Shown in pieces: positions 7,225 through 50,660 of a stretch of 64,000 nt of DNA (the first letter of the stretch is position 1; every line of letters starts with the position of its first letter). Location: positions 558,001 to 622,000 of the forward strand of contig NZ_LR594662.1 in assembly GCF_901827175.1 (NCBI RefSeq), given 5' to 3'. Made by a program: the position numbers and the translations under genes. This DNA comes from Variovorax sp. RA8. GTDB lineage: Bacteria > Pseudomonadota > Gammaproteobacteria > Burkholderiales > Burkholderiaceae_C. The notes beneath the pieces were generated by a model that saw only the letters and a program-made list of their open reading frames with translations, made no database searches and was not told the origin of the DNA.

Positions 7225-7256
7225 GTACATCGTTTCGCACAGTCTCAAAACAGCTC

Positions 7257-8620: not shown

Positions 8621-8681
8621 TCTTCTGTTGTGCTTGCAGCGGTTTGCCTATTGCTCTGTTGAGATGTTCCAATCAATCTAC

Positions 8682-8816: not shown

Positions 8817-8825
8817 TGAGCCTCT

Positions 8826-8877
8826 CAACTGACTTTTAATCCGTTGGTCACAAGTTCGAATCTTGTACGTCCTACCA
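8826..8877 (+). pseudogene. tRNA-Lys(TTT) 3' fragment
   Basis: From the anticodon arm onward the sequence reads as a tRNA-Lys. The anticodon loop is CTTTTAA, the variable region GTTGGTC, the T arm ACAAG-TTCGAAT-CTTGT, and it ends CCTACCA. One pair in the anticodon stem is mismatched. The D arm and the 5' acceptor strand are missing, their place being taken by the heptamer array. Such 3' fragments are typical scars of integration at a tRNA gene. Confidence 0.75.
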
Positions 8878-15347: not shown

Positions 15348-15645
15348 GAGGCCTCTGTTGGTGCGGTCGAAGCAATGTACCCGGTAAACGCTTGTCGATT
15401 CCGGCCGCTGCGGCGGCGGCGACAACAGCGCGGTTGAGCTGGCGCGGGGTCGCCGTGCCCGGCGCTTCGAGTGCCTGTGCAGCACCTCCAGGCGCCCTGA
15501 GGCCCGCAAGCGGGCCCGAAAAAGGCGAAGCAGGCGGCGATGGGCTAAGGGGCGGGCAAGATGGTCAAGCAGGCTGCGGCGGTATCCCGGGCATCCGCAT
15601 GACCCCATTCGATGCGTTGCGAAAGGGATCGCGGAGCCGTCAGGA

Positions 15646-18718: not shown

Positions 18719-19300
18719 ATGTCCCGCGTTTTTGCCTACTGCCGCGTGAGCACCGTCGAGCAAACCACTTCTAATCAGGCGCAAGAGATTGCCGCCGCCG
18801 GCTTCGCGGTCACGCCAGCGCGCATCGTTTCCGAAACCATCTCGGGCTCCACGTCTGCAGCCGAGCGCGCCGGCTTCGGCAAGTTGCTGGATAAGCTGGA
18901 GGCCGGCGACGTGCTGGTGGTCACGAAGCTCGATCGCCTGGGGCGCAACGCGATGGATGTTCGCGCCACTGTCGAGGCCCTCGCCGGCATGGGCGTTCGC
19001 GTGCACTGCCTTGCACTGGGCGGCGTCGACCTCACCAGCCCCGCCGGCAAGATGACCATGGGCGTGATCGCGGCCGTCGCCGAGTTCGAGCGCGACCTGT
19101 TGGTCGAGCGCACCCAGAGCGGGCTGGCGCGCGCCAAGGCGGAAGGGAAGACGCTGGGGCGCCCGCGCGCCCTGACCAAGGCCCAGGCACAGGAAGCGCT
19201 CGGTCGCCTTGCAGCGGGCGAAGCTGTGGCCGCCGTCGCCCGAGCGATGAAGACCAGCCGCGCCACAATCATGCGAGTGCGGGACGCTGCCCCTGCATGA
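18719..19300 (+). CDS. serine recombinase (resolvase/invertase family)
   Basis: A 193-residue small serine recombinase. MSRVFAYCRVSTVEQTTSNQ contains the nucleophile Ser in YCRVST. The catalytic Arg cluster is in VVTKLDRLGRNAMDV and the dimer helix in AEFERDLLVERTQSGLARAK. A C-terminal helix-turn-helix follows (ALTKAQAQEALGRLAAGEAV). AGGAG precedes the start. A longer open frame back to 18380 is not plausible. It is divergent from the MmeI-like gene. It resembles resolvases of transposons and plasmids and may have helped move this block; no res or inverted-repeat site pair was evident. Confidence 0.92.
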   Translation: MSRVFAYCRVSTVEQTTSNQAQEIAAAGFAVTPARIVSETISGSTSAAERAGFGKLLDKLEAGDVLVVTKLDRLGRNAMDVRATVEALAGMGVRVHCLALGGVDLTSPAGKMTMGVIAAVAEFERDLLVERTQSGLARAKAEGKTLGRPRALTKAQAQEALGRLAAGEAVAAVARAMKTSRATIMRVRDAAPA

Positions 19301-27084: not shown

Positions 27085-28173
27085 TTAGCGCTCGATGTAG
27101 GCATTCCATCTATCTCGACGACCGGTCTCTTTGATCGCATTGGCAATGCTTGTGGCTGCGGAGCGGAGAGCTGCCTCCAAATTGTCGTCGAGACGATCAT
27201 CACGATAACGGACATGAACCATTCCGCTCAGGTCGGTGGGAAGCTTGGGTGCGTTTTCTGGGCACACCAGGAATGTTCGATCCTTTCCCAGGGCGCCAAT
27301 AAAAAGTCCCAGTTCAAACGTCACGTTGTCGCGCGGAATGTTCACGTCCTCTCCTCGCCACGTAGCGATGTCGTCTCTGCCGGCGATGAGGATCGCGTAG
27401 TCCACATCGCGCGTCTTTGTCAACAGCGCCGACATGAAATCGCTCGAAGGTTTGAAGACTCCGTCCGTCCACACCGTGCATTCAATGTCCGGCTTCGCGC
27501 TCTCCAGACATTGCTGGAGTGCGTAGGCGACCGTCTTTGTCTCGCCTGAAGACCCGATGAAAACGCGATAGCGCTTTTGCGTTCTAGGCAGATCGTCAAA
27601 CGCAAGGCGCCCAAATGCCGTCAAGCGACACGCCTCCAGGATTCTTTGGACGGCTTTAAGCTGACGGTTCGATGCCCCATGCTGCTTGAACAGGCCCTCA
27701 TGCTCAGCACAAAGACTCCCACACCTCAGCTTCCAGGAAATCTCTTGCTTGTCAACGCACCAGTCAAGCAGGCAGCCAATCGATTTATCGTGGGGCTTTA
27801 AGCTGTCTTCCCCGACATCTGAGACCTGTGCGTATACGGACAGAGCGATCTCCATCATCAAGAAGCTCGCAAGACCTGGCGGGGAGAACTGATCAGACCA
27901 ACCGGCGGTCGAGATAATGGATACTCCCCTCGTAGAGTGGGAGAACCAGTTGTCTTCAAACGGCAAGGACGTTACCGCGATCACGTTGGGACCATGATCC
28001 TCCAGGAAAGAAAGGTCAATCGGCCAGGACACCGCTTGATCGTTTGCGAGCGACTCGGAAGCGACGGCACGTAGCGAGATCACATCCTGCGCGGCATCGA
28101 TACATTGACCGGCGCGCTTGAGATGCACGTCGTCCCTTCCGCTGAGTGCCACGGAAACCAGTGCAAATTCCAT
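27085..28173 (-). CDS. TIR-like domain effector (PF10137/CAP12 type)
   Basis: A 362-residue two-domain protein. The C-terminal part (about residues 205-355) is a predicted nucleotide-binding TIR-like domain: YRVFIGSSGETKTVAYALQQ, then DYAILIAGRDD, then NVTFELGLFIGALGKDRTFL. The Glu in FELG is the expected NAD-hydrolase catalytic residue. The first 200 residues form a separate domain (ISTAGWSDQFSPPGLASFLM; SIGCLLDWCVDKQEISWKLR then CGSLCAEH), whose Cys cluster could bind metal. TIR domains of this class deplete NAD in CBASS, Pycsar and related immunity. No cyclase gene is adjacent, so the N-terminal domain may itself be the sensor. Confidence 0.85.
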   Translation of the reverse strand: MEFALVSVALSGRDDVHLKRAGQCIDAAQDVISLRAVASESLANDQAVSWPIDLSFLEDHGPNVIAVTSLPFEDNWFSHSTRGVSIISTAGWSDQFSPPGLASFLMMEIALSVYAQVSDVGEDSLKPHDKSIGCLLDWCVDKQEISWKLRCGSLCAEHEGLFKQHGASNRQLKAVQRILEACRLTAFGRLAFDDLPRTQKRYRVFIGSSGETKTVAYALQQCLESAKPDIECTVWTDGVFKPSSDFMSALLTKTRDVDYAILIAGRDDIATWRGEDVNIPRDNVTFELGLFIGALGKDRTFLVCPENAPKLPTDLSGMVHVRYRDDRLDDNLEAALRSAATSIANAIKETGRRDRWNAYIER

Positions 28174-28515: not shown

Positions 28516-29166
28516 ATGGCACGACATACCCCGCACCACCAGCCCGGCCCAGCCGCCGAGCGACTGATCCCCGCCCCGAAGATGTCGGTCGAAGAGACCA
28601 TGCGGTCTTTCATCGCGGAAGCAGCTCAGGACATCGTCCCGCCGTCGAGGGAGGCGGTTGAACTGGCAACGAAGCTCAACATCGTGTTTGACTCGGTGTT
28701 CGAGCCGCGCAGCGCAGGCGGCAAGCGCAAGGGCGCCGTCGCGACCGACCTGAAGGTCTTTGTTTCGATGCACGACATCGGCCATCATCGCGTGGGCCTC
28801 AATCGCGACGCAGCGGCGACGCTCGCCGCGAAGCCAGTGACCGCAGCCGCGATCAGGAAATGGTTCGACGCGACCGGCATGGAGCGGCGCAAGGACCTGT
28901 ACCACGCGCTGCATGTGCATCCTTCGACGCTGTCGCGCGCCGAGCCGCAGACCGAGATGGACGCCTCGGTCACGGAGCGGATGCTGCGCCACAGCGACCT
29001 GCTGGTGCGCGCCGCCGAAGTGTTCGGCGAGGAAGGCAAGACGTGGCTCACGAAGCGGCATGACCTGCTCGAAGGCAAGACGCCGATGGAGTTCGCGGGC
29101 AACGAGTACGGCGGCGCCAAGGTGCGCGCGATGCTCAACGCGATCGAATACGGCGGTGTCGTTTGA
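28516..29166 (+). CDS. Xre/MbcA/ParS-type antitoxin
   Basis: A 216-residue antitoxin. An HTH-like region occupies about residues 115-150 (HALHVHPSTLSRAEPQTEMD). The C-terminal DUF2384/MbcA-ParS toxin-binding domain (RHSDLLVRAAEVFGEEGKTW, then PMEFAGNEYGGAKVRAMLNAIEYGG) fits the neutraliser of RES toxins. The TGA overlaps the TTG start of the RES gene. The N-terminus (60 residues, Pro-rich) is longer than in standard family members. Twin operators lie just upstream. Confidence 0.92.
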   Translation: MARHTPHHQPGPAAERLIPAPKMSVEETMRSFIAEAAQDIVPPSREAVELATKLNIVFDSVFEPRSAGGKRKGAVATDLKVFVSMHDIGHHRVGLNRDAAATLAAKPVTAAAIRKWFDATGMERRKDLYHALHVHPSTLSRAEPQTEMDASVTERMLRHSDLLVRAAEVFGEEGKTWLTKRHDLLEGKTPMEFAGNEYGGAKVRAMLNAIEYGGVV

Positions 29167-29630
29167 GCGTCAGCGTCTGGCGCATCGGCAGCACCAAGGG
29201 CCTGACGCTCGCGACGCTCTGGCTCGGCTCCACCTTCGAGCCTGGACGCTGGCACCGCATGCCACCGGCGGGTCAGCCGGTCGTCTACGCGGGTGGCAGC
29301 CGCGCGCTGTGCCAGCTTGAAAAGCGCGTGCATTGCAACGGTGTGCAGCCGATCAATCAGACGCTGCTGCGGCTGGACCTGCCAGACGACGCAGAGCTGA
29401 CGGACATCCGCGATGCAGGCATGCCGCACAACTGGCGCGCAGATGAACCGTGGAGTCAGAGCGTCGGGACCCTCTGGCGCACCTCGGGCATGTCGCTGGG
29501 CCTGTGGGTGCCGTCAGCGGTCGAGCCGGGCGAGTCCAACATGGTGCTGAACCCGGACCACGAGCAGTACGCGGCCATTAAGATCACGGTCGAGCGCAAC
29601 CCGTTCCTGTTCGACCAACGCATGTTCTAG
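29163..29630 (+). CDS. RES-domain toxin (NAD-degrading)
   Basis: A 155-residue RES toxin starting at a TTG (LSVSVWRIGSTKG) that overlaps the antitoxin stop. The conserved Arg of WRIG, Tyr of VVYAGGSRALC and Glu of QLEKRVH correspond to the RES catalytic set. RES enzymes deplete NAD by phosphorolysis or hydrolysis, arresting growth. It ends FLFDQRMF, the usual family terminus. The pair looks intact and could be an addiction module for the island or an abortive-infection unit. Confidence 0.92.
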   Translation: MSVSVWRIGSTKGLTLATLWLGSTFEPGRWHRMPPAGQPVVYAGGSRALCQLEKRVHCNGVQPINQTLLRLDLPDDAELTDIRDAGMPHNWRADEPWSQSVGTLWRTSGMSLGLWVPSAVEPGESNMVLNPDHEQYAAIKITVERNPFLFDQRMF

Positions 29631-32369: not shown

Positions 32370-32517
32370 GAAGAACTGGCAAGGGCAAGGAACTCTCCCG
32401 CGTGGGCGCAAGCGACCTGTATCTGCGCCAGGCGGCGCTGCCGGAGACCCCCTCGACCGCCCGGCTTCTCATCTTTGTCTATCTCTGCTTGAGCTTCCAT
32501 CGCAATGGACCTGTTTA

Positions 32518-35103
32518 TCAGCTGGCTTGCGCCACACGAGCCCGGCTCGCTGGACGCCAGGCGAAGCGCGTAAACCTGCGCTCTGCGTCCAGTTCACTCA
32601 GGCAAATGTCCTGTGCGGTCGCATCAACGACGACGCTGAACTGGGGTGGGCTGGAATGGGGAACATGCATCAGATCGCCGGCCTTGATGCCTTCTCGGTC
32701 CAGGTAGGCCGTGGCAGGGGCTGTGGCGACTTCCAGACCGGTCGTGATGTGATGCGCGAGCCAGTTTTCGCCATGGGCGCTTTCGTCAGCCGTTGGCGCA
32801 TTGGTCATTCGCAAGCTGGAGGCAAGTTGCGCTGTGTCCTCGTCATCGACGGCGATGGCCGGGAGCAGGTCGTAAAGATATGCGTACGTCGCAACCAAAT
32901 AGTCCTTTGTGGCTTTCGGCGCCATGGGCTCAATGCGCTTCAGGAGGCTGTGACCAATGTCCCAGGCGAGCCACGCCAGCAGTGCCCGCACTTGACCGAG
33001 TTCTACGACTTCGTCGGCCTCGCCGTCGTGGACGCGGATATCGCGCGCGATGCCCTGCGCACGCCCGAAAAGGATGACCATCGACTGCGACAAGAGATCC
33101 TGACGGGTTTCCGGGTCGATGAACCCTCCCATGCGGCGCCATTGGGGCAGGTGCCGAAGGCGCCTGAACTCCCGCACCAGTGACAGCACCGCGACGAGCT
33201 GGACCACCCCTGTTCGTGTCTTGGCCGCACGCACGTCAGGCCTGGTCTCGCTTTGCGCCGCCTTGAGCTGTTTGATCATGCGACGGACGACTTTTTTGAG
33301 CCGCTTTCTCACCGCGTCGACCGCTTGCAGGGTCAGCGCAGCGGGAGGCTCTTGGCTGGCCTCCTCATGCTCAGTTCCTACAAGCTCCTCTTCCGAGAGC
33401 GGCGGTGTCTCGGTGGCCGATGCGGCCGATCTTGGCAATCCCTGGCCCAGGCGGTAGAGGAGGGCATCGAGCACGTCGAGCAGGCTTCCCGCTTGCAGAA
33501 GGCGCTTCTTCTTGCTCTTCCTTGCGTTGGCACTTTCGCCGATGTGGACGGCGAGCGATGCCGGGCGTGCCGAAGCAATCGGAGTTTGCTCGCCCGCGCC
33601 AGGCCGCACGGTGCCGGGCGGTGGCGACACCACTTGTTCCGGATCGTCGAAGATGGCCTTCTCGATTTGCTGGATAAGCGATTCGATGTTGGCACCGCTG
33701 AAGTCCAAGCCGGCCAACGCATCCTGAAGTGCGGCTCTGTGCGAGCGCACCACACTTCGGCCCAGAGCCGCATCGTGGTGCACGATTACGCGCAGGAGCT
33801 TGCCACCGCGGCCGCTCAGCTCCAGCCACCGCACTTCAGACGCCCTCTCGCCCAGCTCCACGATCGCGTCCCCATCCTCGGAACGTCCAAGGCCCGCTGG
33901 TGCGGTGTGGGAACCATCCTCCAGGTGCATGATGAACACGGCGAATCCCACAGAGCCCGACGCCGGGATCAGGACTGTCGAAGCCCCCGCGGCAAGAGCG
34001 ACGATCCGCACCGGAGCGCTCGGGCCATCGGCGTCGTTCTCGTCATCCTGGTGCGTGATCGGTATTGCGCGCAGGTCTGCGTCATCCATTGCGCGGGCCG
34101 AAAAACCCTGCGCAAGATCGCTGGCGAAGCTCGAACTTGCCACCTCAAGGTTTGGCCGAACGAGCATGGTCTCGAAGTTGGCGCGCGCGCCTCCAAGCCA
34201 GGCTGGCCGGCTCGGGTTCGCGCTGCCTGCAACGAGCATGTGCGAGCCGCCGAAGTCGAGAAGGAGCGCCTTGGCGTGAAGATAACGCCCTGCCTTCTCC
34301 GCCCAGAGCTTTCGCGCATCAACGAACTGCGAACGAAGCCCTTTGGGATGGCCACCGAGCTTGACGGTCTCGGGGTCGATGATCACCTTGATCGTGGCTC
34401 CGGGCCAACGGGCCTCCAGCGCTTTCAGGAAGGCGTGTTGGGTATCGAAGAACGCGCCGGTAACCACCACGCGCCTGGGCACCACCGGTATCGCGTGGTC
34501 GAGCTGTTCGAGCAACGACGGCCCGCTGTTCGATTGTCCGAGCAGGCGGATGTCGGAAAGCTTCGATTCAGCGCCATCTGCTTCCGGAACAAATTCGCCG
34601 ATCCTGTGCGCGGCCTCCAGTACGGACGGCGCCAGCGCCCCCTCCTGGGTCCGAAGCCATTCGCGGACCAGGCTCCAGATGTGACTCAGCACCCGCTTGT
34701 GAGCAGGGTCGCCGTCCGGACCCACGTCGATGTGCGTCGTGACCTCCCGATTGAAGCCGAAGCCTGAAAGCGTGAGGTTGTGGCTGCCAATGAACAGGAT
34801 ACAGCGCTTCTTGCTGGCAAGCAGGCAGATCTTTGGGTGGAAAGCACCAGGCGCGGCCATGGGGATGAGCGCATACGCCGAACCGGCCAGGCGCGGTCTC
34901 AAGGATGGCGTGGCCCATGAACGCGCGCACTGGACGGTGTCCATGAGCACCACGTTGTGCCGCGACTCGGCCGCCTGCAGGCGCCGAAGTACGACTTCCT
35001 CGTAAAACGGGAGCGCCGCATTAAAGGTCGTCACCAGAGACGCCTCAAATTTCGCGCCTTTTAGAGCTGCCAGCAGCGAGATGTCGTGGTTGGTGTCACC
35101 CAT
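32518..35103 (-). CDS. large PLD-family nuclease-like protein
   Basis: An 861-residue protein with a duplicated phospholipase-D-type fold. The second HKD motif is complete: YLHAKALLLDFGGSHMLVAG then SANPSRPAW (about residues 290-320). The first is HPKICLLASKKRCILFIGSH then NLTLSGFGFN (about 85-115), in which the expected Asp is missing. Residues 500-860 are helical with KKVVRRMIKQLKAAQSE and likely mediate partner contacts. PLD nucleases cut DNA in several defence systems (for example DISARM). The ATG at 35103 overlaps the stop of the preceding gene (ATGGGTGA), implying coupled translation. Confidence 0.85.
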   Translation of the reverse strand: MGDTNHDISLLAALKGAKFEASLVTTFNAALPFYEEVVLRRLQAAESRHNVVLMDTVQCARSWATPSLRPRLAGSAYALIPMAAPGAFHPKICLLASKKRCILFIGSHNLTLSGFGFNREVTTHIDVGPDGDPAHKRVLSHIWSLVREWLRTQEGALAPSVLEAAHRIGEFVPEADGAESKLSDIRLLGQSNSGPSLLEQLDHAIPVVPRRVVVTGAFFDTQHAFLKALEARWPGATIKVIIDPETVKLGGHPKGLRSQFVDARKLWAEKAGRYLHAKALLLDFGGSHMLVAGSANPSRPAWLGGARANFETMLVRPNLEVASSSFASDLAQGFSARAMDDADLRAIPITHQDDENDADGPSAPVRIVALAAGASTVLIPASGSVGFAVFIMHLEDGSHTAPAGLGRSEDGDAIVELGERASEVRWLELSGRGGKLLRVIVHHDAALGRSVVRSHRAALQDALAGLDFSGANIESLIQQIEKAIFDDPEQVVSPPPGTVRPGAGEQTPIASARPASLAVHIGESANARKSKKKRLLQAGSLLDVLDALLYRLGQGLPRSAASATETPPLSEEELVGTEHEEASQEPPAALTLQAVDAVRKRLKKVVRRMIKQLKAAQSETRPDVRAAKTRTGVVQLVAVLSLVREFRRLRHLPQWRRMGGFIDPETRQDLLSQSMVILFGRAQGIARDIRVHDGEADEVVELGQVRALLAWLAWDIGHSLLKRIEPMAPKATKDYLVATYAYLYDLLPAIAVDDEDTAQLASSLRMTNAPTADESAHGENWLAHHITTGLEVATAPATAYLDREGIKAGDLMHVPHSSPPQFSVVVDATAQDICLSELDAERRFTRFAWRPASRARVAQAS

Positions 35104-36745
35104 GGGCGGTCTCGAAGAGCTGGATGCCAAGCGCGGTGGCCCGCAGGTCTCCGCTGCCGTCGGGCTCACGGGCCAGGGCGCCGACATCCCACAGGATCTT
35201 GATCGCTTGCCGGATACGGGGATTGGTCTTTGCGGGCACGGGGACGTCACCGCGTGCCTCGATTCCCCGCTCGGTGGGATGGATTCGGAAGGTGGCGGTC
35301 GAACTCTGTCGCAGCTTGCGCAGTGCGACGCGCAGATGAGTTTCCAGGATCCAGGCGACCAGGTCCGCGACGACGGCTGAAAGCGCCATGTCGTTCCATT
35401 TCACGCAGCGCTCCCGAAACGATCTCAGGTTGATCGGAGAGTCCTGAAGCTGCGTAGGGTCCATGGCCAGATGGCCATAGGCGGGGATATCCTGGTTCTC
35501 CCGCATCCGAAGAAGCGCCAGTACGCTCACGACGGACGCCAGGAAGGCAGGCTCCCGGTCCAACTGCTGGCGCTCCCTGGAAACGCGGGCAGCAGCCCAT
35601 GCCAACTCGTGCCCGTCGGCCATGAAGTCGCCGAGCGGCGGTGCGCCGGATTCCAGCGAACTGCACAGCGCGCCAAAGGTCTTTGCCTTCAGCTTGCCCA
35701 GTGCCTTGAGGAGTTCGGGGTGCCTCGCCAGCGACTGGCTGAATTCTTCGATGGAAGCCGGCGGCGTTGGCTCCGTTGCCAGCGCGTTGAGCGAGATGGC
35801 GAAGGCCTTCTGCATCGCAACGGACATCAGGTCATTCCGGACATAGTAGGCCCAGGCCGACCGGGTGGGGGCCAAGGGCGTTGGAGGGCGCCATTCTGTG
35901 CGGTCCGCGAGGGTTTCTGTGTAGACGGCTGCGCGGAAAGTCGGTTCGTCGAGAGCTGAGAGTTCTGCCGCCTGCAATGCACCGGCCAGATGCAGCAAGA
36001 GCGCCAGACTCTTGCGCCGCTGGACTCCTTCTGCCTCGAACTCGGACTTCCGGTCGAAGAGGATGTCGAGCAAGGCAGCCTGTTCGCCTTGCCGCTGGGG
36101 CAGGCAACAAGGGCAGAAGTCTTGGAGCGCATCCAGCGTCTGCGCTGAAACAGTGTCGGCATCCACGGCTTGCCAGAAGGCACGACCGTCGACACCCATG
36201 TCGAACGCCCGCGCGATCGGCTCGCCGCGCTCATGTGTGTAGCTCAGCCATGGCTTTTCGACTGCGGCCAAGATGTCGAGCTGCGTCAACGTCCCCGCGT
36301 AATACTGACCGAGGCCGCCAAGCTTGTTGGCGAAATAGCGCTCGCTGGAGTCCTCTCGGGTCGCGTAGGTCGAGAGACGAACCGACTGTCCTTCGCCGAT
36401 CAACTTGACTGCATCGTTGAGCGTGTCCCGTCCGACCATCGCAGGCCCGTGGCGTGCTGCGTCGTCGCCCATGACTTGCGCATGGCGCTCGGCGATCATC
36501 GTAAAGAGGCAATCGGCTTTCCGGTAACCCTCCACGAATGCGTTGAAGTTCTCGCGGTGGCTGTCACGCTCCGCGTATGAGCGGATCAACCATGGATAAA
36601 AACTGTAGTACCGGGCTCTGTCAGTGACATTCGTAATGCCGGGAAGCAGCTGCGAGTAGATCAGGATGCACGGGCCTTGCGTACCAACGTGGTCTAGACC
36701 ACCTATGGTGTGCGGAGGTAATACCCAGCTGGTTTTGATTGCCAT
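35096..36745 (-). CDS. DUF6361-like protein, 549 aa
   Basis: A 549-residue soluble protein starting MAIKTSWVLPPHTIGGLDHV. The N-terminal stretch QLLPGITNVTDRARYYSFYP then WLIRSYAE resembles the PG-T-x-RARY-F-PW pattern of DUF6361 proteins. The rest is helical with FCPCCLPQRQGEQAALLDIL, a possible CxxC zinc site. The final 90 residues look like a winged helix (GIEARGDVPVPAKTNPRIRQ AIKILWDVGALAREPDGSGD). It lies between the helicase and PLD genes and is coupled to the latter. DUF6361-like genes co-occur with nucleases and helicases in defence loci; the assignment here is by motif only. Confidence 0.6.
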   Translation of the reverse strand: MAIKTSWVLPPHTIGGLDHVGTQGPCILIYSQLLPGITNVTDRARYYSFYPWLIRSYAERDSHRENFNAFVEGYRKADCLFTMIAERHAQVMGDDAARHGPAMVGRDTLNDAVKLIGEGQSVRLSTYATREDSSERYFANKLGGLGQYYAGTLTQLDILAAVEKPWLSYTHERGEPIARAFDMGVDGRAFWQAVDADTVSAQTLDALQDFCPCCLPQRQGEQAALLDILFDRKSEFEAEGVQRRKSLALLLHLAGALQAAELSALDEPTFRAAVYTETLADRTEWRPPTPLAPTRSAWAYYVRNDLMSVAMQKAFAISLNALATEPTPPASIEEFSQSLARHPELLKALGKLKAKTFGALCSSLESGAPPLGDFMADGHELAWAAARVSRERQQLDREPAFLASVVSVLALLRMRENQDIPAYGHLAMDPTQLQDSPINLRSFRERCVKWNDMALSAVVADLVAWILETHLRVALRKLRQSSTATFRIHPTERGIEARGDVPVPAKTNPRIRQAIKILWDVGALAREPDGSGDLRATALGIQLFETAHG

Positions 36746-36859
36746 GGATTCTCGATTCAAATTTAACACCGGTGGTCTAAAGGGCAGTCGCCTTCGCTAC
36801 TGGCGACCAAGCGCCTGCAACTCATCAGCAGCCGACGTCGCGGTTGGATCACCTACATC

Positions 36860-39800
36860 TCAGACGTCTACCCGGACTTCCGCAAGCGGCGTTTCCCAGT
36901 GATCTGCCTGTAGGGCCGGCCAGTACTCTTCGGGCGTCTGAGACCGCGTTCGCACCATTACCGCAACCACGGTTGCGACCCCTCGTTGGAGAGGCGTCGC
37001 ATCTACGCTTGCGGCCAGCCGGCCAACGATCTGTCCAGAGGGCGAATGGACGTATCGTCCTTTCACCTCGACTACATCTCCGGTCCGCAAAGCGGCGATC
37101 GCGCGATGAATTGGCTGCGTCAACGACGCGCGTCCAGCAAATCCAATGTCCACGCTGGCCGGGCCCAGCATGACGTATTGGCGCTCAAGATCCGCGCGGT
37201 GCTGTGGTCGGGCACGCGGCAGCTGATCCTGTACCCCATCTATGGTCCCCAGATCAGCGAGATAGGGATTGCGTCCACCCTCTGCGCGCATCAAGCTAAG
37301 CGACTGTCGAGCGCGCGTCATGGCCACGTAGAGAAGTCGCCGTTCATCTTCTTCATCCCAGCGCCAGTCAGCGCAGTCCATCACGATGACGTGGTCAAAC
37401 TCCAGGCCCTTGGCAGCATGTGCAGTCATTACTTTGATGGCGCTGTCGCGGCCATCCCGTCGCATTTCGCCAGCAGCTTCGTAGAACAGGTCGAGCGCTT
37501 CGGCTGCTGGAACGATGTCTGCTTGCAGCGAGGAGGCGACGTCATCGACGATGTCTAGGAGATCCAGCAGCGCGGCGTTTCTGGGCTGAGCGCGTTGCAG
37601 ATAGCTCAGGGATCTGCGTAGCGCGCTGAGGCGCAACATGCGCAGCTGTCGCCGTCTCAGTGCCTGGGCTAGTGCCCAGCCTTCGCGAGTCCGCATCAGC
37701 GTGATTTGTCCCTTGGCCGCTTCTGGGCCGGTGATCTCGCAGGGCAGTCCTTCGACATCGCAGATAGCCCTCATCTTTTCCAACGGGGCGTGTGTGCGGC
37801 AGAGCACCGCGATTTCCGAGAGTTTGACCGTCGGATCGATGCGCCGGATGCGCTCGATCTCTGCGTGAACCAGTTGGGCCTGGAGGTTCGGGGCCGGAGG
37901 GCTAGTGATCAACCGTACTGCGCCGCGGCCTTGCTTGTCGATCGCGGCCCACCTACCACCCGGTAGATCATCCTTGCGCCGAGCGTCGATCCGAATCGGG
38001 TGATCGACCTTCATGCGGTCCGCACCGCGCTGGATCACGTGGTTGGCGGCCGAGATGATGTTCTGGGTGGAGCGGAAGTTTTCAACCAGGTAGGTGAGCT
38101 CTCCCTCATAGTCGGACCGGAAGCGCCGGATGAACTCGATGTTCGCGCCTTTAAAGGAGTAGATGTTCTGGTCATCATCTCCCACGGCCATGATGCTCAG
38201 CTTGGTGTCGGCGTCTGATCGCCGGCGGCCGGCAGGGCGCTGACCAGCGCGTACTGCTGCGCGTCGATGTCCTGGTACTCGTCGACGAAAATGTATTCGT
38301 AGCCTTGCAGTAGCCGATCGCGGATCTCGTCCGCGTCGATCAGAGCCGAGCTCTTGCCTTCGAGCAGATCGATGGCGTCCTGGAGCATCTTCCTGAAGTC
38401 GACACTGCTGGAGGTGCGCTCCGCGCCGGCCAGGCTGGTCCCTGTCAAACGCAACGCGATGGCGTGGTAGGTCATGACCAACACACCGCGCGCATCGTCT
38501 CCGGCGAGCGTCAGCAGTCGGCGGCGCAATTGGATGGCCGCTCCCCGGTTGTAGGCCAGCGCGATGATGCATCCCGGATTCACGCGCTGAACGCGAAGCA
38601 AGTAAGCGATGCGGTGGACGATCACCCGCGTCTTGCCGGAACCCGGACCCGCTAAGACCAAGTGATTACCTGTCCGCGGCTGTGTAACCAGGGCCTGCTG
38701 CACTGGGTGCTGCAGGTCATCAACAATGCGCAGATAGGACTCGTCGGTAGTCTTGCGCTCGAGTAGGTCCGCGCGTCCGCGAAAGAATTCCTTGATGAAC
38801 TGCTTGTGGGGCAGTGTGAAGTAGGCTTTGACCAGGGCAAGCGCCTTCGCCGGATCTTCCGCGCCCAGCTTGGCGTACTCGTGCATGACGTGCGTCTGCA
38901 GCGTCCGTTCCTTGTAAAACTCTTCCAGAGGCGCAAACGATGCTTGGTTGAACCGCCTGGAGGTGTCCTCGTCCATCTGGATGGTCATCGCAGAGCGGAA
39001 GACGGATCTACCTTTGTCCAATTCGAGCACACGAGTCTGGTGAAGGTAGAGCAGCGCATTCTCCAGCGCCACGTCGGGCTCGCGCAGTTGGGTTTTCATA
39101 ACCAAATCGTCACTGAGCGCGTCGATCAGTGCCTGGGCCTTGCACTCCACCAGGCATGCTCCTTTGACGCCGTCTGGGACCTCTGCAAGCAACCGGGTGA
39201 GCGTGACTTGGGCGACGGCACGTCGCAGTTCGCAGATTCTGCGAATCTGGGACCAAGGGCGACGCAAGGTGACGCGCAAGGTGTCATCGCCCAGCGACTG
39301 CAACTGGATCATGCTGCGCTTGTCGTTACCAGAGCCGAAACCGTCGGCCATGGCTCGCAAGCAGGCTCGGACCTGAGTGGGGTCGAGTTGCCCCTTTTCG
39401 TCGTCGAGTTTCAGACGGCCGCGCAGCTCAGTGCAGATCGCTCGGAGGTTTAGATGTTGTTGCGCTTCGTCTTGATCGGCGTCAGGGGCGTTCTCAGCCA
39501 TGAGCTCGACGAGCGCCTTCTCCATGGCGCTCAGATATTCCAGACGGGATGCGGACGCGCCCCTTACGCCACGCATCAGGCGCACCGTCAGTCCGAGGTC
39601 ATTGACTAAGATCCCTAGCTTCGCCAACTGGTGAACGATGCGGAAGCATTCCTCCGGTCGGATGCCCGCGTTGAGCATGAGCTCGTCGGTGCTCAGCCCC
39701 TCAGGGGTGTCGGACCGGAACAGGGCTGTGGCGACGGCGAGAAATTTCTGTTGAACGCTGGCCGAGAAATCCGCCTTGTCGATGCGCTCTTTGGCTTCCT

Positions 39801-42033
39801 GCAGTGAGGTCACCCGAAGACTGGCAGGGAAGACTTTGGTGGCGTTCTCGTTGCGCTTCAAGAAACCATGGCGCTCAAGCCACGACAGAGCTGTGGTGAC
39901 CTTGGTGGAGGCGTCAGGGGCATCGATCTCTATGCCGGTTCCGACGCTTTGCGCGAGCAGCTCTTTCGCTGAGATGACGATCTCGTCTTTTCCCAGCTTC
40001 TTGGCCTGGAAGCGCAAGGCACGGAGCAGTCCGATGAAATCTCGCTGCGATAGCTGGGAGGTGGAGGACAGGCGGAACTGGGTTTCCACATCCTTGGGGT
40101 CGAACAGCAGGACACATTTGGCTTCGTCCCCATCGCGCCCGGCTCTTCCAGCCTCCTGAAGATAGTTCTCCAGGGAACCAGGAATTTCGGCATGGATCAC
40201 CAGCCGAACGTTGGGTTTGTCCACACCCATGCCGAACGCGTTGGTGGCGGCGATCACCTGCAGCTCGCCGTCTAGGAAACGGCGCTGGGTCTCTTTGCGC
40301 AGATCAGCGGTGAGCCCTCCGTGGTAGCAGCCGCATACGATGCCCTGTTGCGCGACGATCTGTGCGATGGTCTCAGCGCTCTTGCGCGTGGCGCAGAAGA
40401 CTACGGCAGCGTCTTCTTGTCGCAAGCCATCGCGTAGCAGCTCCACGATGCGCTGCGGTTTTTCACCGCCCGAAGTCGGCACTACGGCATAGGACAGGTT
40501 GGTGCGCTCGTGGCCGCCGAGGAATGTCTCCAGTTTGATCTGAAGGCCTTCCTGGAAGTGGTCGCACAGGTCCTCGATGACGTCCGGCTTGGCAGTGGCG
40601 GTAAAACAAGCGATCGGTGCTTGCCCAGGAAACTGCTCCCGGATGAAGCGCGAGACGTACAGATAGTCCGTGCGGAAGTCGTGCCCCCATTTGGACAGGC
40701 AGTGGGCTTCGTCGAAAACCCAGGCCGCGATCTCCCGCATGCGGATGGCTTCGACGAACGTCTTGCTTCTGAACTGCTCGGGTGAGACGAGCACGATGCC
40801 GATGTCGCCCAGGCGAATACGGTCCAGCACATCTCGTCGTTCCAGCGGGGTGAGCATCCCATTGACGGTTGCCGCGCACTGGATGTCGGCTTTCATCAGG
40901 TTGTCCACCTGATCTCGCATCAGCGACTGCAGCGGCGAGATGACGACGGTGAGCCTCCCTGAGCGGCGATAGTGAACGAGGGCTGGGAGCTGGTAGCAAA
41001 TGGATTTGCCGCCGCCGGTGGGTAGGACAGCCAACAGGCTCTCCCGTGCCAGTCCTGCACTGACGATCGCGCGTTGAAGCGATGAGCCATCGGTGGTTGT
41101 CGGGTGCGCTCGGAAGCTTGGCTTGCCGAATAAAGAGGACAGCTGCGCTTCAGGATTGTGGTTCCGGCGGCAATATGGGCAGTTGGTCTGACCGCAGTCG
41201 ATCTCCCGTAGCTGTGCGATCAATTGCCTGACGGCGGGCAGTTCGTGGAAGACCCAGTGGGGGAGGATGGAGTTTCCTCCCGCGACGCGAATCCAGCCCA
41301 GGGCAAACGCGATCGACCAAGGGTCGTGGCTGTCGAAGGAAGTCCCTATGTCGGCGACCAGCGACTGCAACCGGGTGGCGCAGCAGCGATCCGCAAAACG
41401 GCTGGCAACGATCGGCCCGACCGCCTCGCCAGCGGGAGCGGTCTCGTCACGCACCTGAGCCAACAGCGTCGCCATGCTCTCGTCGTTGCGAAGCAGGAAG
41501 TGCAGCAATGCCAGCCACCAAGGCTCCTGCTCGTTCGCCTCCAGCAGCGCTTCGACGGCCTCTTCGAACACGTTGAGCGCCACCCGAGCGTCCTTTGTCG
41601 GGTTGTTGCGTTCGTCGGAGAGCAGCTTGTAGCCCTTCACCAGCCGGTGATATGGGTTGCTAGGGAAGGCGAGGGCGGACAGTTCCAGAGTGTCCAGCAT
41701 GGGCCAGCGCAGGCATTCCAGCTGCGGCAGTTGGTCGCGCATCAGCGGTATGTCGTGGCGCTTGAGGTTGTGGCCCAGAAGGACCTGGCCGTCACGGGCA
41801 AAGCTGTTGAGGGATACCGCCACCGTGGCTGCTCTGGCAGGGGAACAGGCGCTGCGGTAAGCATCCGAGTTGTCCGATCGGACGGCGCCGACAGCAAAGA
41901 TCTGGTTGCCCTTTTCAGGATGGGCTTCAACGTCGACGGAAACAATTCGACCCTCGGCGGCGATGCGCCGAGCACGTGCATGCAAGGAGTCGAGGGCAGG
42001 CGTTTCCAACGAAGGCCGGGCGAACAGCAGCAA
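36860..42033 (-). CDS. exonuclease-RecQ-UvrD triple-domain helicase, one frameshift
   Basis: The reading frame stops at 38197, but the next frame continues perfectly. Replacing a lost G near 38232-38236 (CTGCC to CTGGCC) joins ...QQYALVSAL with AGRRRSDADTKLSIMAVG, giving about 1,724 residues. Domains in order: a DnaQ-like exonuclease (VSVDVEAHPEKGNQIFAVGA; GHNLKRHDIPLM; about 30-170); a CxxC element (TNCPYCRRNHN); RecQ (LPTGGGKSICYQLPALVHYR about 335; FDEAHCLSKWGHDFR); then UvrD (LVLAGPGSGKTRVIVHRIAY about 1130; FVDEYQDID; IYSFKGANIEF; VMTAHAAKGLEFDHVIVMD; VAMTRARQSL). The TTG start at 42033 is uncertain. It is divergent from the DUF3883 gene. Two helicase motors plus a nuclease in one chain suggest DNA processing in defence. 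Confidence 0.88.
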
Positions 42034-42144
42034 GTGTGAGAGTAGGGCGTTGTAACATAGTGTTGTTTCCCCACGGCAGGATGTTTGCCACCCTGACCCA
42101 TATGGCGGTATTTATGCCGCTAAAGCGGCTCTTCCAGAACGCTG

Positions 42145-43286
42145 ATGGCTGTTGAACTATCGCGCCTCCAAAGTCCTGCTGCCATTCAAGCTGCACTGGA
42201 TGAGTTTTCCCGCCTTGGTCGAACGGTGTTTCTGGCGCGATACGGGTTTGGAAAGTCGCGCGATTTTCTGGTTCGTGATGGAAAAACCGGACAGTTGTGC
42301 GATTCCAAAGCGATCGTTGGAGCAGCTTTTGGGTATCAGTTTCCTGACGAGGGCCCGCTCAAACCCGCCGACTTTTCCGGCGGGGAGGCCACCGTCGTTC
42401 CCAAGCTGCAACGCCTCGGCTTCGAGGTCGTGCGCATCGGTGAGGACTGGACGTCGGACGAGGTGCAAGCCACGGTCGCGTCGTACTTCGAGATGCTCCG
42501 ATTGGAGGCTGCGCAGCAGCGCTTCACCAAGACGGAGTTCAATGCGCAGCTTCGCCAGCATCTGCGAGGGCGCAGCAAAGGTTCGGTTGAGCTGAAGTAC
42601 CAGAACATCAGTGCCGTCTTACACGACCTGGAGCTGCCCTTTATCCGCGGCTACAAGCCTCGTAGCAATGCACAGCTCCTTTTGCGGCAGGCGGTCCAGC
42701 AATTCGTCGTGGATCAGCCGAGCCTGGTATCTCAGGTTGTCGATGCGATGGAGGAGGTCCAGGGGCCAGGCCAACAGGCTTTTCACGCCTCCGTGGTGGA
42801 ACCCCCGAATCTTGAGACGGTGGTGGAGGTGGCAAAGGAGGGGCCTAAGGTCAGGTTTCCGCGCAAAACGAACTGGGCTCAGCGCGACGAGGCGAACCGA
42901 AATCTTGGCCGTGCCGGTGAACAGTGGGTCATCGGCTTCGAGCAGCGGCGGCTCGCAGACGCCGGGTATCCGGAACTATTTCAGCAGTTGGACTGGGTCT
43001 CGGATCGCCTCGGTGACGGGATTGGCTACGACATCCTCTCGCATGAGCGGCCCGGCGAGCATCGCTTCTCGAGGTCAAGACCACCAACGGTGGCCATGCT
43101 TCCTCCTTCATCATCAGTCGCAACGAGTTGGACTTTGCCGCAGAGGCGGAGGAGGCGTTTCATCTCTATCGTGTGTTTCAGTTCCGCGATGAGCCAAAGC
43201 TCTACATCCTCAAGGGCAGCTTGGTAGACCAGGTTCATCTGGAACCCATTGACTATCGAGCTTCGTTCCGACGTTTAGTGGGGTGA
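42145..43286 (+). CDS. ScoMcrA-like head + DUF3883 protein, one frameshift
   Basis: Residues 1-105 resemble the N-terminal head domain of ScoMcrA-type restriction proteins (LDEFSRLGRTVFLARYGFGK, CDSKAIVGAAFGYQF, DFSGGEATVVPKLQRLGFEV). A helical middle follows. The C-terminus is a DUF3883 nuclease-like domain (NLGRAGEQWVIGFEQRRLAD, then LEVKTTNGGHASSFIISRNE). The frame shifts at TTCTCGAGG (43066-43070): one missing C turns FLEVKTT into FSRSRPP. Restored length is about 380 residues. E-V-K is the likely catalytic end. It is divergent from the helicase and directly upstream of the HIT gene. Confidence 0.82.
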
Positions 43287-43292
43287 TCTGCA

Positions 43293-43541
43293 ATGACTGA
43301 AAAGCCTTGCCCCTTTTGCGCCTTGCCTGCTGAGCGTGTCCTGGGGCAGAACGCCAACGCGCTCTGGATTCGTGACGGCTTTCCCGTTTCGCCTGGGCAT
43401 AGTCTGGTGATTCCCAAGCGTCACATCGGCTCCTTCTTCGAAGCCAGTCCGCAGGAACGCGCCGCACTGTTGGAGCTACTGGATCAAGCCCGGGCAGCTG
43501 CAGGGACTGAGTTTCACCCGGATGGATTCAACATTGGGGTA
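43293..43541 (+). pseudogene. HIT-family protein, 5' half
   Basis: Encodes MTEKPCPFCALPAERVLGQN through AGTEFHPDGFNIGV, the first 83 residues of a small HIT hydrolase. The CxxC zinc pair and GFPVSPGHSLVIPKRHIGSF are typical. Downstream bases are not HIT sequence but the reversed complement of the neighbouring gene. The catalytic half (PHLHIHLIPRFLGDQSDPRG) is present in opposite orientation at 43711-43854. Joining the pieces gives a normal 130-residue HIT protein. It starts seven bases after the DUF3883 stop, so it belongs to the same operon. Confidence 0.88.
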
Positions 43542-43756
43542 GTCAGCGAAAGTTCGGACCCGTCGTCCGCCCCCAATTCCACAGCGAGATCGGAGAGCAC
43601 GATCAGCAACGCAAACTTGTAGGTGGCCGTGAAATCGCCCTCGGCAAAGAGGCGCTGGAGCTTCGTCAGGAATTCGAGTTGCTGCTCCGCAGATGGGGAG
43701 GTTTTAGCGATCAATCGCGCGAACTCCAGTAGTCCGCTTTGTCTGGAATCACCCAT
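43542..43756 (-). pseudogene. HNH protein N-terminus (inside inverted segment)
   Basis: Seventy-one residues from MGDSRQSGLLEFARLIAKTS to DGSELSLT, on the minus strand. It is followed in its present orientation by HIT antisense. In the un-inverted order it joins IRQIAERFVQLYWRHALPYG at 43855. Its ATG would overlap the HIT 3' end (CGATGG), showing the original genes were coupled. Confidence 0.85.
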
Positions 43757-43854
43757 CGCACACCACCCCGTGGGTCAGACTGGTCACCCAGGAAGCGCGG
43801 AATGAGATGGATGTGAAGGTGGGGCACTGTCTGCCCCGCAGCGGCGCCATCATT
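43711..43854 (-). pseudogene. HIT-family protein, 3' half (inside inverted segment)
   Basis: Minus-strand NDGAAAGQTVPHLHIHLIPR then FLGDQSDPRGGVRWVIPDKA and DYWSSRD before a TGA at 43711. The HxHxH active-site motif lies here. It cannot be translated with its own start in the present orientation. Confidence 0.88.
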
Positions 43855-44746
43855 GATCCGGCAGATCGCGGAGCGATTCGTGCAGCTGTATTGGCGGCAC
43901 GCACTGCCTTATGGGACAGGGCAGCCCCACGCGAGACCAGGCGTGCTTGTACAGAATCTGGGAGTGCAAGCAGCCGTTCTTACGGCCATCGAGGAGTTTC
44001 GGTGCACATCGAGCTCGACGACGCTTCAGCAGGCCCGCAGCGAGGCCGCTTACGGGCCCTTGCTTTCCAAAGTTGCAACGGTGGTTTCTGCGCAGCCTCT
44101 GAGCTATCTGCAGAATTTCGGGGGCATCACCGACCCGTTCCTGTACCAGAGACCAGGGCGTGGCATCGTGGTGTTGAAGCCGAATGTCAGCTATTGTCTG
44201 CGCCGTTTTCACCCTCTGGTGCAACACTTGGCCCGCAATCACTGGGTGGGTCACGTCAAGGCCAATCGACGAAACCACGGGATCTTGGGCGATGCCGGGG
44301 ATCTAGAGGATTTTCTTTTTGGAATCTCTCGGCAGTCACTTTCTATCATTGGTGCCGGCCTGCGGAAGCTAGATGGTCCGCGGTGCTTTTACTGCGGACA
44401 AGGGCTGCACGAGGCTGACGTCGATCACTTCGTTCCGTTCGCGCTGTACCCGCGCAACCTTGTGCACAACTTCGTGTTGGCACACCCGGAGTGCAATAGG
44501 AGCAAGTCGGACTCTCTTGCCGGCAAGGTGCATCTGGCGCGATGGCTCGATCGGTTAACAGCGCGCTCACCACAACTTGCTGAGATCGGCGCAGTCGCGG
44601 GCGTGGTCACTGACGAGGAGGCCGCCCATCGCGTTGCGGCTTGGGGCTATGGCAACGCACATGCAGCGCAGGGGCGGGCCTGGGTCAAGGCCTCGAATTA
44701 CGAGGTTATCGATTTGGGTTATTTGCAGCGCTTGGCTAGCCCATGA
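43855..44746 (+). pseudogene. HNH endonuclease-like protein, C-terminal part
   Basis: About 297 residues in the plus frame from IRQIAERFVQLYWRHALPYG to ...LGYLQRLASP. An HNH zinc-finger nuclease motif lies at about residues 180-222: CFYCGQGLHEADVDHFVPFA, then LVHNFVLAHPECNRSKSDSL. The natural N-terminus (71 residues) is in the inverted segment; the full protein would be 368 residues. A methionine near 43853 could start a shortened product, so residual expression is possible. It ends the operon DUF3883-HIT-HNH. Confidence 0.85.
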
Positions 44747-44861
44747 ACTTGTGGTTCATATTGCAAGTTGGCACAACAGGAGCACATACGCTAGGACTAC
44801 TCGCCGCCATTGGGGAATGTGAGGAGGCTCTGCGGGTGTGCCGCTTCCGAGTCGGCCGCAG

Positions 44862-45104
44862 CTAGGCTCCAGCCTTGACCAGAACCGCGATCGCGATCTC
44901 GGGATGTTGTTTGCAAGCGCGACACCAGTCCAGATAGAACAGCACGTCCATATACCGTTCGCCTCGCTCGACCTTTGATACATGGGACTGGTCTACTTTG
45001 AGCCGTACTCCAAGTTCCGCCTGCGTCAAGCCAGCTGAGCGCCGAAGGGAGCGCAGATGCTTTCTTAGCACCTCATATCGGCGATGGTGAATGGACGGTG
45101 GCAC
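44862..45104 (-). CDS. small XRE-family HTH protein
   Basis: About 80 residues ending ...HPEIAIAVLVKAGA, with the HTH LRSLRRSAGLTQAELGVRLK then VDQSHVSKVERGERYMDV. The start is uncertain: a GTG at 45104 (VPPSIHHRRY) is the best choice, and the open frame runs much further upstream without coding character. It is divergent from the XRE-cupin gene at 45222 and closes the helicase locus on its right. Confidence 0.75.
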   Translation of the reverse strand: MPPSIHHRRYEVLRKHLRSLRRSAGLTQAELGVRLKVDQSHVSKVERGERYMDVLFYLDWCRACKQHPEIAIAVLVKAGA

Positions 45105-45221
45105 TTCTCGATGCTCAGACGCCAATCGAAAAAGGCCATTTCGCCCTTTTTTGATTATCATGGGCAGCAGAGAGAAATGCTGTTTTGGCCTTTCTCGAGA
45201 TTCTTCTGCTGTGAGATTCAA

Positions 45222-45893
45222 ATGACGCGTCGACAGATTGCTTCGCCCCTGCCAATGGCTCGACCTCTGCGCCTGCCGGCCTCGGTGACGCGCGTCCGCC
45301 CGCGGCAACCCGCACCTGCCGTGCGCAGCCTGTCCGCATCGCGCATCGGTACGCAGGTGAGGGCGCTTCGCATGGCGGCTGATGTGTCTGGCGGTGAGTT
45401 GGCACAGCTCTCGGGGATTTCCTCCTCTATGCTCTCGCGCATCGAGCGCGGGCTGGTCTCGCCTTCGGTGGAGACCTTGGAGCGCCTCGCCAGGGGTTTG
45501 CACGTGCCGACGTCGCGCTTTTTCAGCGACCAGGCACGCCGAACGGACTTCTGCCATGTACGCGCAGGGCGTGGTCCGGTAGTCGACCGCATCGGCGCCG
45601 TGGCGGACTACCGCTACGAATTGCTGGGCCATCTGCTGTCGGGCAACCTGTTCGTCGAGCCCTACCTGGTCACGTTGATGCCCGGCGCCGATCCTTATGT
45701 GACCTTCCAGCATCCGGGCCTCAAGTTTCTGTACTTCCTGTCCGGGGACGTCACCTACCGCTACGGTGCCAAGACGGTCGCGGTGAGGGCAGGGGACTCG
45801 CTGCTGTTCGATGCGACTGCGCTGCATGGCATCGAAGCGATCCAGGTCCAACCGGTCTCCTATCTCTCGGTGGTGTTCACGCTGCGCGAGTGA
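45222..45893 (+). CDS. XRE-cupin regulator, right copy
   Basis: A 223-residue paralogue of the regulator at 31695. The HTH is IGTQVRALRMAADVSGGELA then GISSSMLSRIERGLVSPSVE. The cupin is FQHPGLKFLYFLSGDVTYRY and VRAGDSLLFDATALHGIEAI. The two share long identical runs such as RIGAV..YRYELLGHLLSG and FVEPYLV. Both are on the plus strand. The start was placed at MTRRQIASPL; a longer frame to 45084 overlaps the divergent HTH gene. Upstream a weak hairpin AAAAGG...CCTTTT straddles the likely promoter. Confidence 0.87.
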   Translation: MTRRQIASPLPMARPLRLPASVTRVRPRQPAPAVRSLSASRIGTQVRALRMAADVSGGELAQLSGISSSMLSRIERGLVSPSVETLERLARGLHVPTSRFFSDQARRTDFCHVRAGRGPVVDRIGAVADYRYELLGHLLSGNLFVEPYLVTLMPGADPYVTFQHPGLKFLYFLSGDVTYRYGAKTVAVRAGDSLLFDATALHGIEAIQVQPVSYLSVVFTLRE

Positions 45894-48503: not shown

Positions 48504-50369
48504 TGTCAGGCGACACGAGAAACTGCCCCCCCGCATTGACTCATCCGGACTGCTACCGGGTGAGCCTGAGCCCAAGCCTCACGTAACGTGCCACCTGCTG
48601 GATGGGCCAGCCGGAGCGCCCGAATGTGACGAGGCAAGTGAGCATGTCAACACGCAGGGAGTTGATCGACGCCGTCGGCGCGCGGTACCGGTTGGGTTCT
48701 AAGACCGAGCGGAGCTCGATCCTGGACGAGTTTGTGGCGATTACCGGCTATCACCGCAAGCACTGCATCCGTTTATTGTCCAAGCCGCAGACGCCACCGA
48801 ACGAGCGCCGGCCCAACGTTCGATACGGCCCTGCCGTGTGCGAGGCTCTGGGAACACTCTGGGAGGTCTCCGACCGCGTCTGCTCCAAACGCCTGAAGGT
48901 CATGATCCCGGCCTTGCTGCCTGCGATGCTTCGACACGGCCGGATCAGCGACGACCCGAGCTTGCATGCCCAGCTGGTCGCGGTCAGTCCGGCCACCATC
49001 GACCGGCTCCTTGCTCCGCTGCGGCTCGCCGCCAGCAAGGGCAGGCGTCGGGCCGCCGGGCAAAGTTCGGCAGTCCGCCGTGCGGTACCGATCCGCACCT
49101 TCGGTGACTGGAACGATCCCGCACCGGGTTACCTGGAAGTCGACTTCGTCGCGCATTGTGGACCTCAGCTCGCGGGCACCTTCGTTCAAACACTGGTGCT
49201 GACCGACGTTGCCACTGGCTGGACGGAGTGCGTCCCGGTGCTGACGCGCGACAGCACCCTCGTCATCGACGCGATCGACAGGGCTAGGGTCCTGTTCCCT
49301 TTCCCGATGCGCGGCGTGGACTTTGACAAACGATAGCGTCTTCATGAACGAGCGGGTCGTGGATTGGTGTCGTGCTCACGGTCTTGAGGTAACGAGAGCG
49401 CGCGCCTACCGCAAGAACGATCAGGCCTGGGTCGAGCAGAAGAACGGCGCCATCGTTCGCAGGTTGGTCGGCTATGGCCGCTTCGAGGGATTGGAGTCAG
49501 TGCGCGCACTGACCCGGTTGTACGCGGCAGCTCGTATCCACACCAACGTGTTGCAGCCGTCGTTCAAACTGCGCCGCAAATCGCGCATCGGCGCCAAGGT
49601 CGTCAAGCGATACCACCCACCCGTTCCGCCGGCGAGGCGCGTTCTGGCACATGATGGAGTCGGCCCCGGGGCCAAGGCCAGATTGGTGCGAGTCCTGGCA
49701 GAGCCGACCCTGTCGTACTTCTGAACGAGATCCGGGCTGCTCAGGAAGACTTGGGACGTCGCGTGGACCAACGTGGCGTAGGCGGGCCCTGTGCAAACGC
49801 CGACGAAGCCCTCGGCAGCCCGGTCGCTGCGACGCCCTGAGTCCACAGCGGAGAGCAGCGTGCGATCCATCGGCGACCCTACAAGCGCCGCAAGCCCTTA
49901 CCGCAAAAGGCGCGCATGTTGGACGCCTATGAAAACCAGGTGCGCAACTGGCTCCAGCGGCATCCGGGAATGACGGCCGTCGAAATCCTCAAACGGCTGC
50001 GAGAACTGGCGCCGACAGGAACGTTCACGGACAAACAACTGAGAACGGTGCAGCGTGCTCTCTCAGCATGGCGTGCAGACGCAATCCGTCGGTGGATCGA
50101 TCAATGCCGACTTGAAACCGAAGTAAGTGTGCCTCCGCGGATTGCGGCTGCTGCGCTCTGAAGGGGGCCAGGCGCTGCGCGCCTGGCAATAAATCATTAA
50201 ATAAGCCAACTCGGCATGACCGGCCGTGGACAACGCTTCGCGTTGACCACCGCCTGCGCCTGCGCCGAACACATGATCGCTGAAGGAAGCAACGACACCG
50301 CGCTTCACGCGCTCGGTAACATTGCGCCGTGAGGCAACATGGGGGGACAGTTCCTGATGTCGCTTGACA
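48504..50369 (+). mobile_element. complete insertion sequence, 1,866 bp, with 6-bp target duplication
   Basis: The left end starts TGTCAGGCGACACGAGAAAC; the right end is its imperfect inverse (GTTCCTGATGTCGCTTGACA), about 28-bp inverted repeats with five mismatches. The element is flanked by identical TAGTCC at 48498-48503 and 50370-50375, a 6-bp target duplication. Inside is a single DDE transposase reading frame that is broken. Size and duplication suggest the ISNCY group (ISDol1-like), from memory. Inserted just after the relaxase gene. Confidence 0.92.
48644..50161 (+). pseudogene. DDE transposase of the insertion sequence, frameshifted
   Basis: The first frame runs from MSTRRELIDAVGARYRLGSK through the catalytic Asp region YLEVDFVAHCGPQLAGTFVQ to VDFDKR*. 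One extra A (GACAAAC for GACAAC, about 49328) causes the stop. The next frame continues NDSVFMNERVVDWCRAHGLE, then the catalytic Glu in AWVEQKNGAIVRR and ends TLSYF. A third piece, after a further frame change, carries RRPYKRRKPLPQKARMLDAY then ENQVRNWLQRHPGMTAVEIL. The intact enzyme would be near 500 residues. The frame change needed is +1, unlike the usual programmed -1 shift of IS transposases. Confidence 0.82.
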
Positions 50370-50660
50370 TAGTCCTACCAGCTCGCCCTTTCCCACATGC
50401 AATGAGTCCCTGCAGAAACTGACAGTTGAACTTAGCTGCCCTTCATCGCACGCTCGCAAGAAGCCATCCAGCGGCGAGGTGAGAGAGTCGAGCCAGGGGC
50501 CGACAGGTGGGTGTTGATTGTTGACCGCGTTGTACGGGCAGAGTCGCAACTTCGAATCATTCGGGTGCTGCATTCATGTATCTCTTTGCGAAGCTGAGAA
50601 CTGCGCCATGGAAACACCCATCCCTCGCTGAAGACCGCGGCTGCACTTCGAGGACTTGTC

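Follow-up and report, generated by a model that had tools for sequence, protein, structure and literature searches.

Intragenic DNA inversions are a known kind of phase variation, according to a review (PMC11868660), and a second paper describes invertons as flanked by inverted repeats of 10–40 nt that are bound by an invertase (PMC11892184). A third source describes human–chimpanzee microinversions that copy the inverted segment precisely, the primate examples being 17–33 nt long and flanked by inverted repeats (PMC8755829). Here we describe a reversed segment of ~320 bp in the chromosome of Variovorax sp. RA8, found within a stretch of 64,000 nucleotides (contig NZ_LR594662.1, positions 558,001 to 622,000, equivalent to C1:558001-622000 of genome G000; hereafter the window), where it breaks a HIT gene and an adjoining HNH gene. 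Variovorax is an environmental genus and the host is a soil bacterium. Like an inverton, the locus has a short intragenic segment whose reversal moves coding sequence to the other strand; unlike invertons as described there, it has no flanking inverted repeats of 10–40 nt and only one orientation was seen. It shares with non-recurrent microinversions a short segment that is exactly reverse-complemented, a conserved length and trivial microhomology at the edges, and differs from the primate cases in its size and in having no flanking inverted repeats. We read it as probably a one-off cut-and-rejoin inversion in a freshly inactivated gene module.

The inverted segment and its counterparts in relatives

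Window 42000-45500 was aligned (blastn) with the corresponding locus of Variovorax paradoxus NBRC 15149 (L002), and the two were found to be collinear across the NOV_C, HIT and HNH genes except for a reversed middle. Window positions 43537-43857 matched the opposite strand of L002 over 321 bp, ungapped and with 87.85% identity (E 1e-112), while the flanks matched at 89.2% on one side and 86.7% on the other. The length is conserved relative to L002, with no base lost or gained at the inversion. The resulting arrangement is as follows:

43293..43536, plus strand: N-terminal part of the HIT gene, without the histidine triad (Pfam HIT 1.7e-10; collinear with the L002 HIT gene from 5654)
43537..43859 at its widest, 43539-43857 at its narrowest (319-323 bp): the inverted segment (blastn against L002; complementary edge bases)
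43537..43756, minus strand: N-terminal part of the HNH gene (within open reading frame (ORF) 43514-43756; N-terminus matches proteins P0001 and P0002)
43711..43857, minus strand: C-terminal part of the HIT gene, with the histidine triad (minus-strand translation; the L002 HIT end, 6046, maps to ~43711)
43860..44746, plus strand: remainder of the HNH gene, with the HNH motif (Pfam HNH_4 6.6e-05, HNH 1.3e-04)

The Pfam matches, the translations and the alignment with L002 bear out the first-pass annotation in placing the catalytic half of the HIT gene and the N-terminus of the HNH gene on the wrong strand between their missing halves. The HNH profile is itself split by strand (positions 3-60 match the minus strand and 59-353 the plus strand), and the reversed N-terminal part overlaps the end of the HIT gene, as it does in relatives. 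Within its own genome (7.42 Mb, 4 contigs, completeness 99.99), the region 43300-44700 is present as a single copy.

The edges first proposed, 43542-43854 with no base of slack, did not hold. They would give NIGV and LSLTI at the junctions, whereas relatives have NIGI before NDG in HIT (in the loci listed) and the closest HNH homologues have LSLTT or LSLAT before RQIAERF, residues that call for edges lying 3-5 bp further out at either end. The interval 43539-43857 fits both genes, and 43538-43858 and 43537-43859 are equivalent to it owing to a 2-bp match, which puts one breakpoint at 43537-43539 and the other at 43857-43859 and leaves 2 bp of slack. Slack of at least 2 bp occurred in 17.6% of random pairs. 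The earlier statement that no inverted repeats flank the segment stands: aligning the breakpoint regions locally with each other revealed none above chance, the fraction of random positions reaching the breakpoint score being 0.42, 0.70, 0.48 and 0.82 for arms of 20, 40, 60 and 100 bp, respectively. A repeat finder returned short inverted pairs only, and none among the 25 longest of 27 framed the segment at its edges.

To place the arrangement among relatives, the best 80 of 132 confirmed loci were kept as named loci. The HNH gene lies on a single strand in all 80, and the un-inverted pair that had been proposed as a search target was found, 49 of them having HIT within 600 bp upstream of HNH and in the same orientation. 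The remaining 31 comprise three loci beginning at the edge of a contig (L029, L034, L070), that of V. ginsengisoli (L013) and 27 with less than 42% identity. A blastn match inside the segment was obtained in 37 of the 80, always on the strand opposite to HNH (37/37). Segment and flank were both matched in 32 of 88 loci, in opposite orientations in every one (32/32), and no match crossed a breakpoint in any of the 88; homologues naturally carrying the present arrangement were not seen among them. NOV precedes HIT directly in 6 of the 80 named loci, as a short piece in one of these (L007). The HIT-HNH pair is conserved and its genes often overlap; by record titles, it occurs mainly in Betaproteobacteria.

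In whole-genome searches, the HNH profile matched in 8 of 101 genomes of the genus and 24 of 399 of the family, many of the matches being short HNH-motif matches, and some of these genomes are seemingly the same strains as named loci. Besides the copy in its own genome, full-length HNH copies numbered four in the genus set and four in the family set, one of the eight having an internal stop (G394). Among the limited number of candidates scored per genome in both sets, the strand-split profile was confined to the genome of origin; only the un-inverted state was seen in the 80 named loci and in the remaining genomes that have a complete copy. Viral contigs yielded one distant HNH relative (33%) and nothing bearing on the inversion. 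Judged from these alignments, the inversion is real relative to every comparable relative and slightly larger than the 313 bp first given. The first-pass annotation had offered a rare rearrangement, a novel invertible switch or a local assembly error; the rearrangement is the best supported of these because relatives are un-inverted, the length is conserved and the flipped state was seen in no other searched genome.

Further lesions, assembly quality and age of the damage

The inversion lies in a block held in common with a genome of the same genus (G022), which corresponds to window 36875-45891 and comprises a divergent RecQ-UvrD gene, NOV_C, HIT, HNH and downstream sequence. Comparison of this block with L002 showed two additional lesions in the adjoining genes:

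36863..42033 (including overlapping ORF extensions), minus strand: RecQ-UvrD type helicase gene, with an isolated 1-bp deletion at ~38234 relative to L002
42145..43286, plus strand: NOV_C gene (PADLOC PDC-S36), with an isolated 1-bp deletion at ~43069 relative to L002

Helicase domains were found on both pieces of the RecQ-UvrD gene, and the 3′ piece of the NOV_C gene matched Pfam NOV_C (1.5e-11). The counterparts in G022 are intact, each being one ORF, of 1782 amino acids (RecQ-UvrD) and 380 amino acids (NOV_C). The RecQ-UvrD comparison also revealed a single in-frame stop at ~42122, which lies amid small indels and ahead of the point where the gene starts in the window, and a compensating pair of gaps close to the gene end. 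The two isolated deletions are new here and, like the serine recombinase gene described below, go beyond the first-pass annotation. Together with the inversion, they make three lesions (38234, 43069 and the inverted segment) that break four genes of a putative defence module.

The assignment to defence comes from several comparisons. PDC-S36 is a single-gene phage defence candidate in PADLOC, and the two NOV_C pieces match consecutive parts of its model, with E-values of 9.9e-65 and 7.2e-25; in the window, the gene carries a frameshift and stands beside HIT-HNH, which does not belong to the single-gene model. Septu consists of a PtuA ATPase next to a PtuB HNH protein. One PtuB model weakly matches 28 of 28 alignment members (best 9e-07), in the HNH motif region only and over ~48 residues in the case of P0001, and the HNH gene has no PtuA ATPase beside it, its neighbours being HIT, NOV_C and the helicase. 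Against solved structures, the HNH protein resembles HNH domains of Cas9-type proteins over ~50-60 residues. PADLOC gave one weak match (ThsC) for HIT and motif-level matches only for HNH, and a literature search, with most subscription papers outside its scope, found no listed title or opening of an abstract that names a HIT-HNH defence pair. The earlier description of HIT and HNH as two defence genes is an inference; judged from the surroundings, where several defence-type genes are found, a defence role for HIT-HNH is plausible.

We asked whether the gene fragments show signs of decay. The ratio of nonsynonymous to synonymous substitution rates (dN/dS) relative to L002 was 0.05-0.08 in the five pieces computed, which include the inverted ones and leave out the C-terminal part of HNH. 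Polarised synonymous/nonsynonymous changes, counted over six pieces, were 83/31 in the window lineage versus 76/32 in G022 with L003 as the outgroup, and 91/30 versus 58/26 with L082. Neither the dN/dS values nor the polarised changes gave any sign of relaxed selection in the fragments, and so the lesions are either young or not real. On these counts, the damage to the module looks young. A literature search on the loss of defence systems, with most subscription papers outside its scope, found nothing.

The main rival to a one-off mutation is a local error of assembly or consensus, whereby the segment would be un-inverted in the living strain and both 1-bp deletions would be consensus errors of the same badly resolved stretch. 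This we regard as less likely than a real mutation, though with an appreciable probability. The lesions at 38234, 43069 and 43537-43859 lie close together, yet the fragments look intact and under purifying selection; conversely, there is no edge repeat that would let an assembler flip the segment, and its length is conserved to the base. The adjoining 4.2 kb at 32506-36750, which is 83% identical to G081, showed nothing but a compensating pair of gaps.

The quality of the assembly was assessed on a core region (G000 C1:2767001-3127000 against G090 C31:1-357000, ~91 kb aligned). It contained no isolated 1-bp gap, nor any small inversion adjacent to syntenic sequence; three isolated 2-bp gaps were found. 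When 320-bp inversions were simulated in these data, 119 of 120 were recovered, and for simulated deletions of one base the figure was 130 of 240. Because this control of known power was clean, a generally poor assembly is unlikely, and its result for inversions argues against an assembly error at the segment. Two further comparisons were uninformative and are uncounted: 244 kb of G000 (the window plus 180 kb) had no ORF match of at least 50% identity in 160 kb of G090, and 324 kb around the window had no long match. A protein-level frame test on the core was noisy (matches spread over more than one frame in 5 of 63 ORFs of G090 and 8 of 59 of G000, each listed case lying on one strand), which we attribute to wrong-frame ORF picking in high-GC DNA; the statement on 1-bp gaps therefore rests on the DNA test.

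Several points weigh against a one-off inversion in a recently inactivated module. Three separate lesions without relaxed selection exceed what simple decay would lead one to expect, and a locally bad consensus would also account for them. The 1-bp control catches only about half of the simulated deletions, and isolated 1-bp gaps are found elsewhere in the island too (49328 against G091; 32314 and 32436 against G029). Moreover, the inversion is known from a single assembly (the window's own protein, P0003, stands for one contig), and the end-joining step proposed below is drawn from gene content.

The surrounding island and its serine recombinase

The HIT-HNH locus is embedded in an island with the following features:

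7150-7224: tRNA-Arg, upstream of the HIT-HNH locus
7400-8620: tyrosine integrase gene, after tRNA-Arg
13764-15608: gene with a GmrSD N-terminal domain, defence-type
15646-18444: MmeI-type restriction-modification gene, adjoining the serine recombinase gene
18719..19300 (start chosen from translation), plus strand: small serine recombinase gene of resolvase/invertase type, intact (Pfam Resolvase 1.1e-36, HTH_7)
27085-28173: CAP12/Pycsar-type TIR gene, defence-type
28516-29630: Xre/MbcA-type antitoxin with RES domain, defence-type
32518-36769: PLD-domain gene and its neighbour, defence-type, with weak matches to ZacB and ZacA models
48602-49724: transposase gene with an rve domain; an isolated 1-bp insertion at 49328, in comparison with G091, apparently shifts its frame

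The tRNA-Arg and the tyrosine integrase (7150-8620) are likely the attachment end of the island. Directly past the integrase gene, ORF 8617-8832 is made up of a tandem repeat with a unit of 11 protein letters. Towards the other side, an HTH-cupin regulator region (45273-45891) matches contig C5 of G022 twice, once ending near 23535 and once at 49771-50389, which suggests that it marks a shared island boundary.

The presence of the serine recombinase gene, ~24 kb from the inversion, raises the alternative of a reversible intragenic switch, in which a recombinase, possibly this one, would flip the segment and so turn HIT-HNH off and on. The nearest solved structure to the protein is a DNA-invertase. 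Serine recombinases make a 2-bp crossover, equal to the 2 bp of slack at the breakpoints. However, 17.6% of random pairs show slack of this size or more, as given above, and the edges carry no inverted repeats. The four 12-bp half-sites around the 2-bp core match one another less well than random ones (sum 12 versus a mean of 19.1), no site for the serine recombinase was found, and the flipped state occurred in no other genome searched. Furthermore, point deletions disrupt the module's other two genes, and returning the segment to its original orientation would therefore not restore the module. We therefore consider such a switch very improbable, and improbable to a still greater degree the specific version in which the island recombinase dispenses with conventional inverted repeats and flips the 320-bp segment at a 2-bp matched core, disabling and restoring HIT-HNH. 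A role for the serine recombinase in the inversion is not supported, and the switch offered in the first-pass annotation is left poorly supported, with no repeats, no site-like half-sites and no second orientation seen.

Origin of the inversion and its significance

With a 2-bp match between the breakpoints but no inverted repeat, an origin by homologous or site-specific recombination is unlikely; both were disfavoured as candidates, with neither repeats nor site-like half-sites at the edges. Another candidate, in place of end joining, is replication template switching at short imperfect palindromes; template switching or microhomology-mediated repair has been discussed for the precise human–chimpanzee microinversions (PMC8755829). 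We give template switching little credence here, where the segment is ~320 bp long and without flanking inverted repeats. A search of the literature on short inversions, with most subscription papers outside its scope, returned no bacterial precedent by title.

The one-off cut-and-rejoin inversion, which we favour as the probable origin, would have proceeded from the intact order seen in relatives, namely NOV_C, HIT and an overlapping HNH. A segment of 319-323 bp would have been cut and rejoined in reverse, with no base gained or lost, as the alignment indicates. Such an event would be consistent with a pair of double-strand breaks repaired by Ku/LigD end joining, and this pathway is perhaps the one responsible. 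For Ku, two genes were found over the cut-off in the genome, and 1 of 14 control genomes has a match. LigD-type ligase domains above the cut-off numbered three, one of which contains an internal stop. The inversion deprives HIT of its histidine triad and HNH of its start and N-terminus, and both genes are presumably null. Given that RecQ-UvrD and NOV_C have 1-bp deletions of their own, as comparison with a single relative shows, the inversion would be young and belong to a recent shutdown of the module as a whole.

If the inversion were an assembly error, it would caution that an artefact of this kind, precise and gene-breaking, can be convincing. If it is real, it would be a clean example from bacteria of an inversion of ~320 bp that has no repeats and conserves length, in a genome encoding Ku and LigD; inversions of this kind would escape scans that start from inverted repeats. 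It would also mean that a four-gene putative defence module has been caught just after its shutdown, which bears on why such modules get lost.
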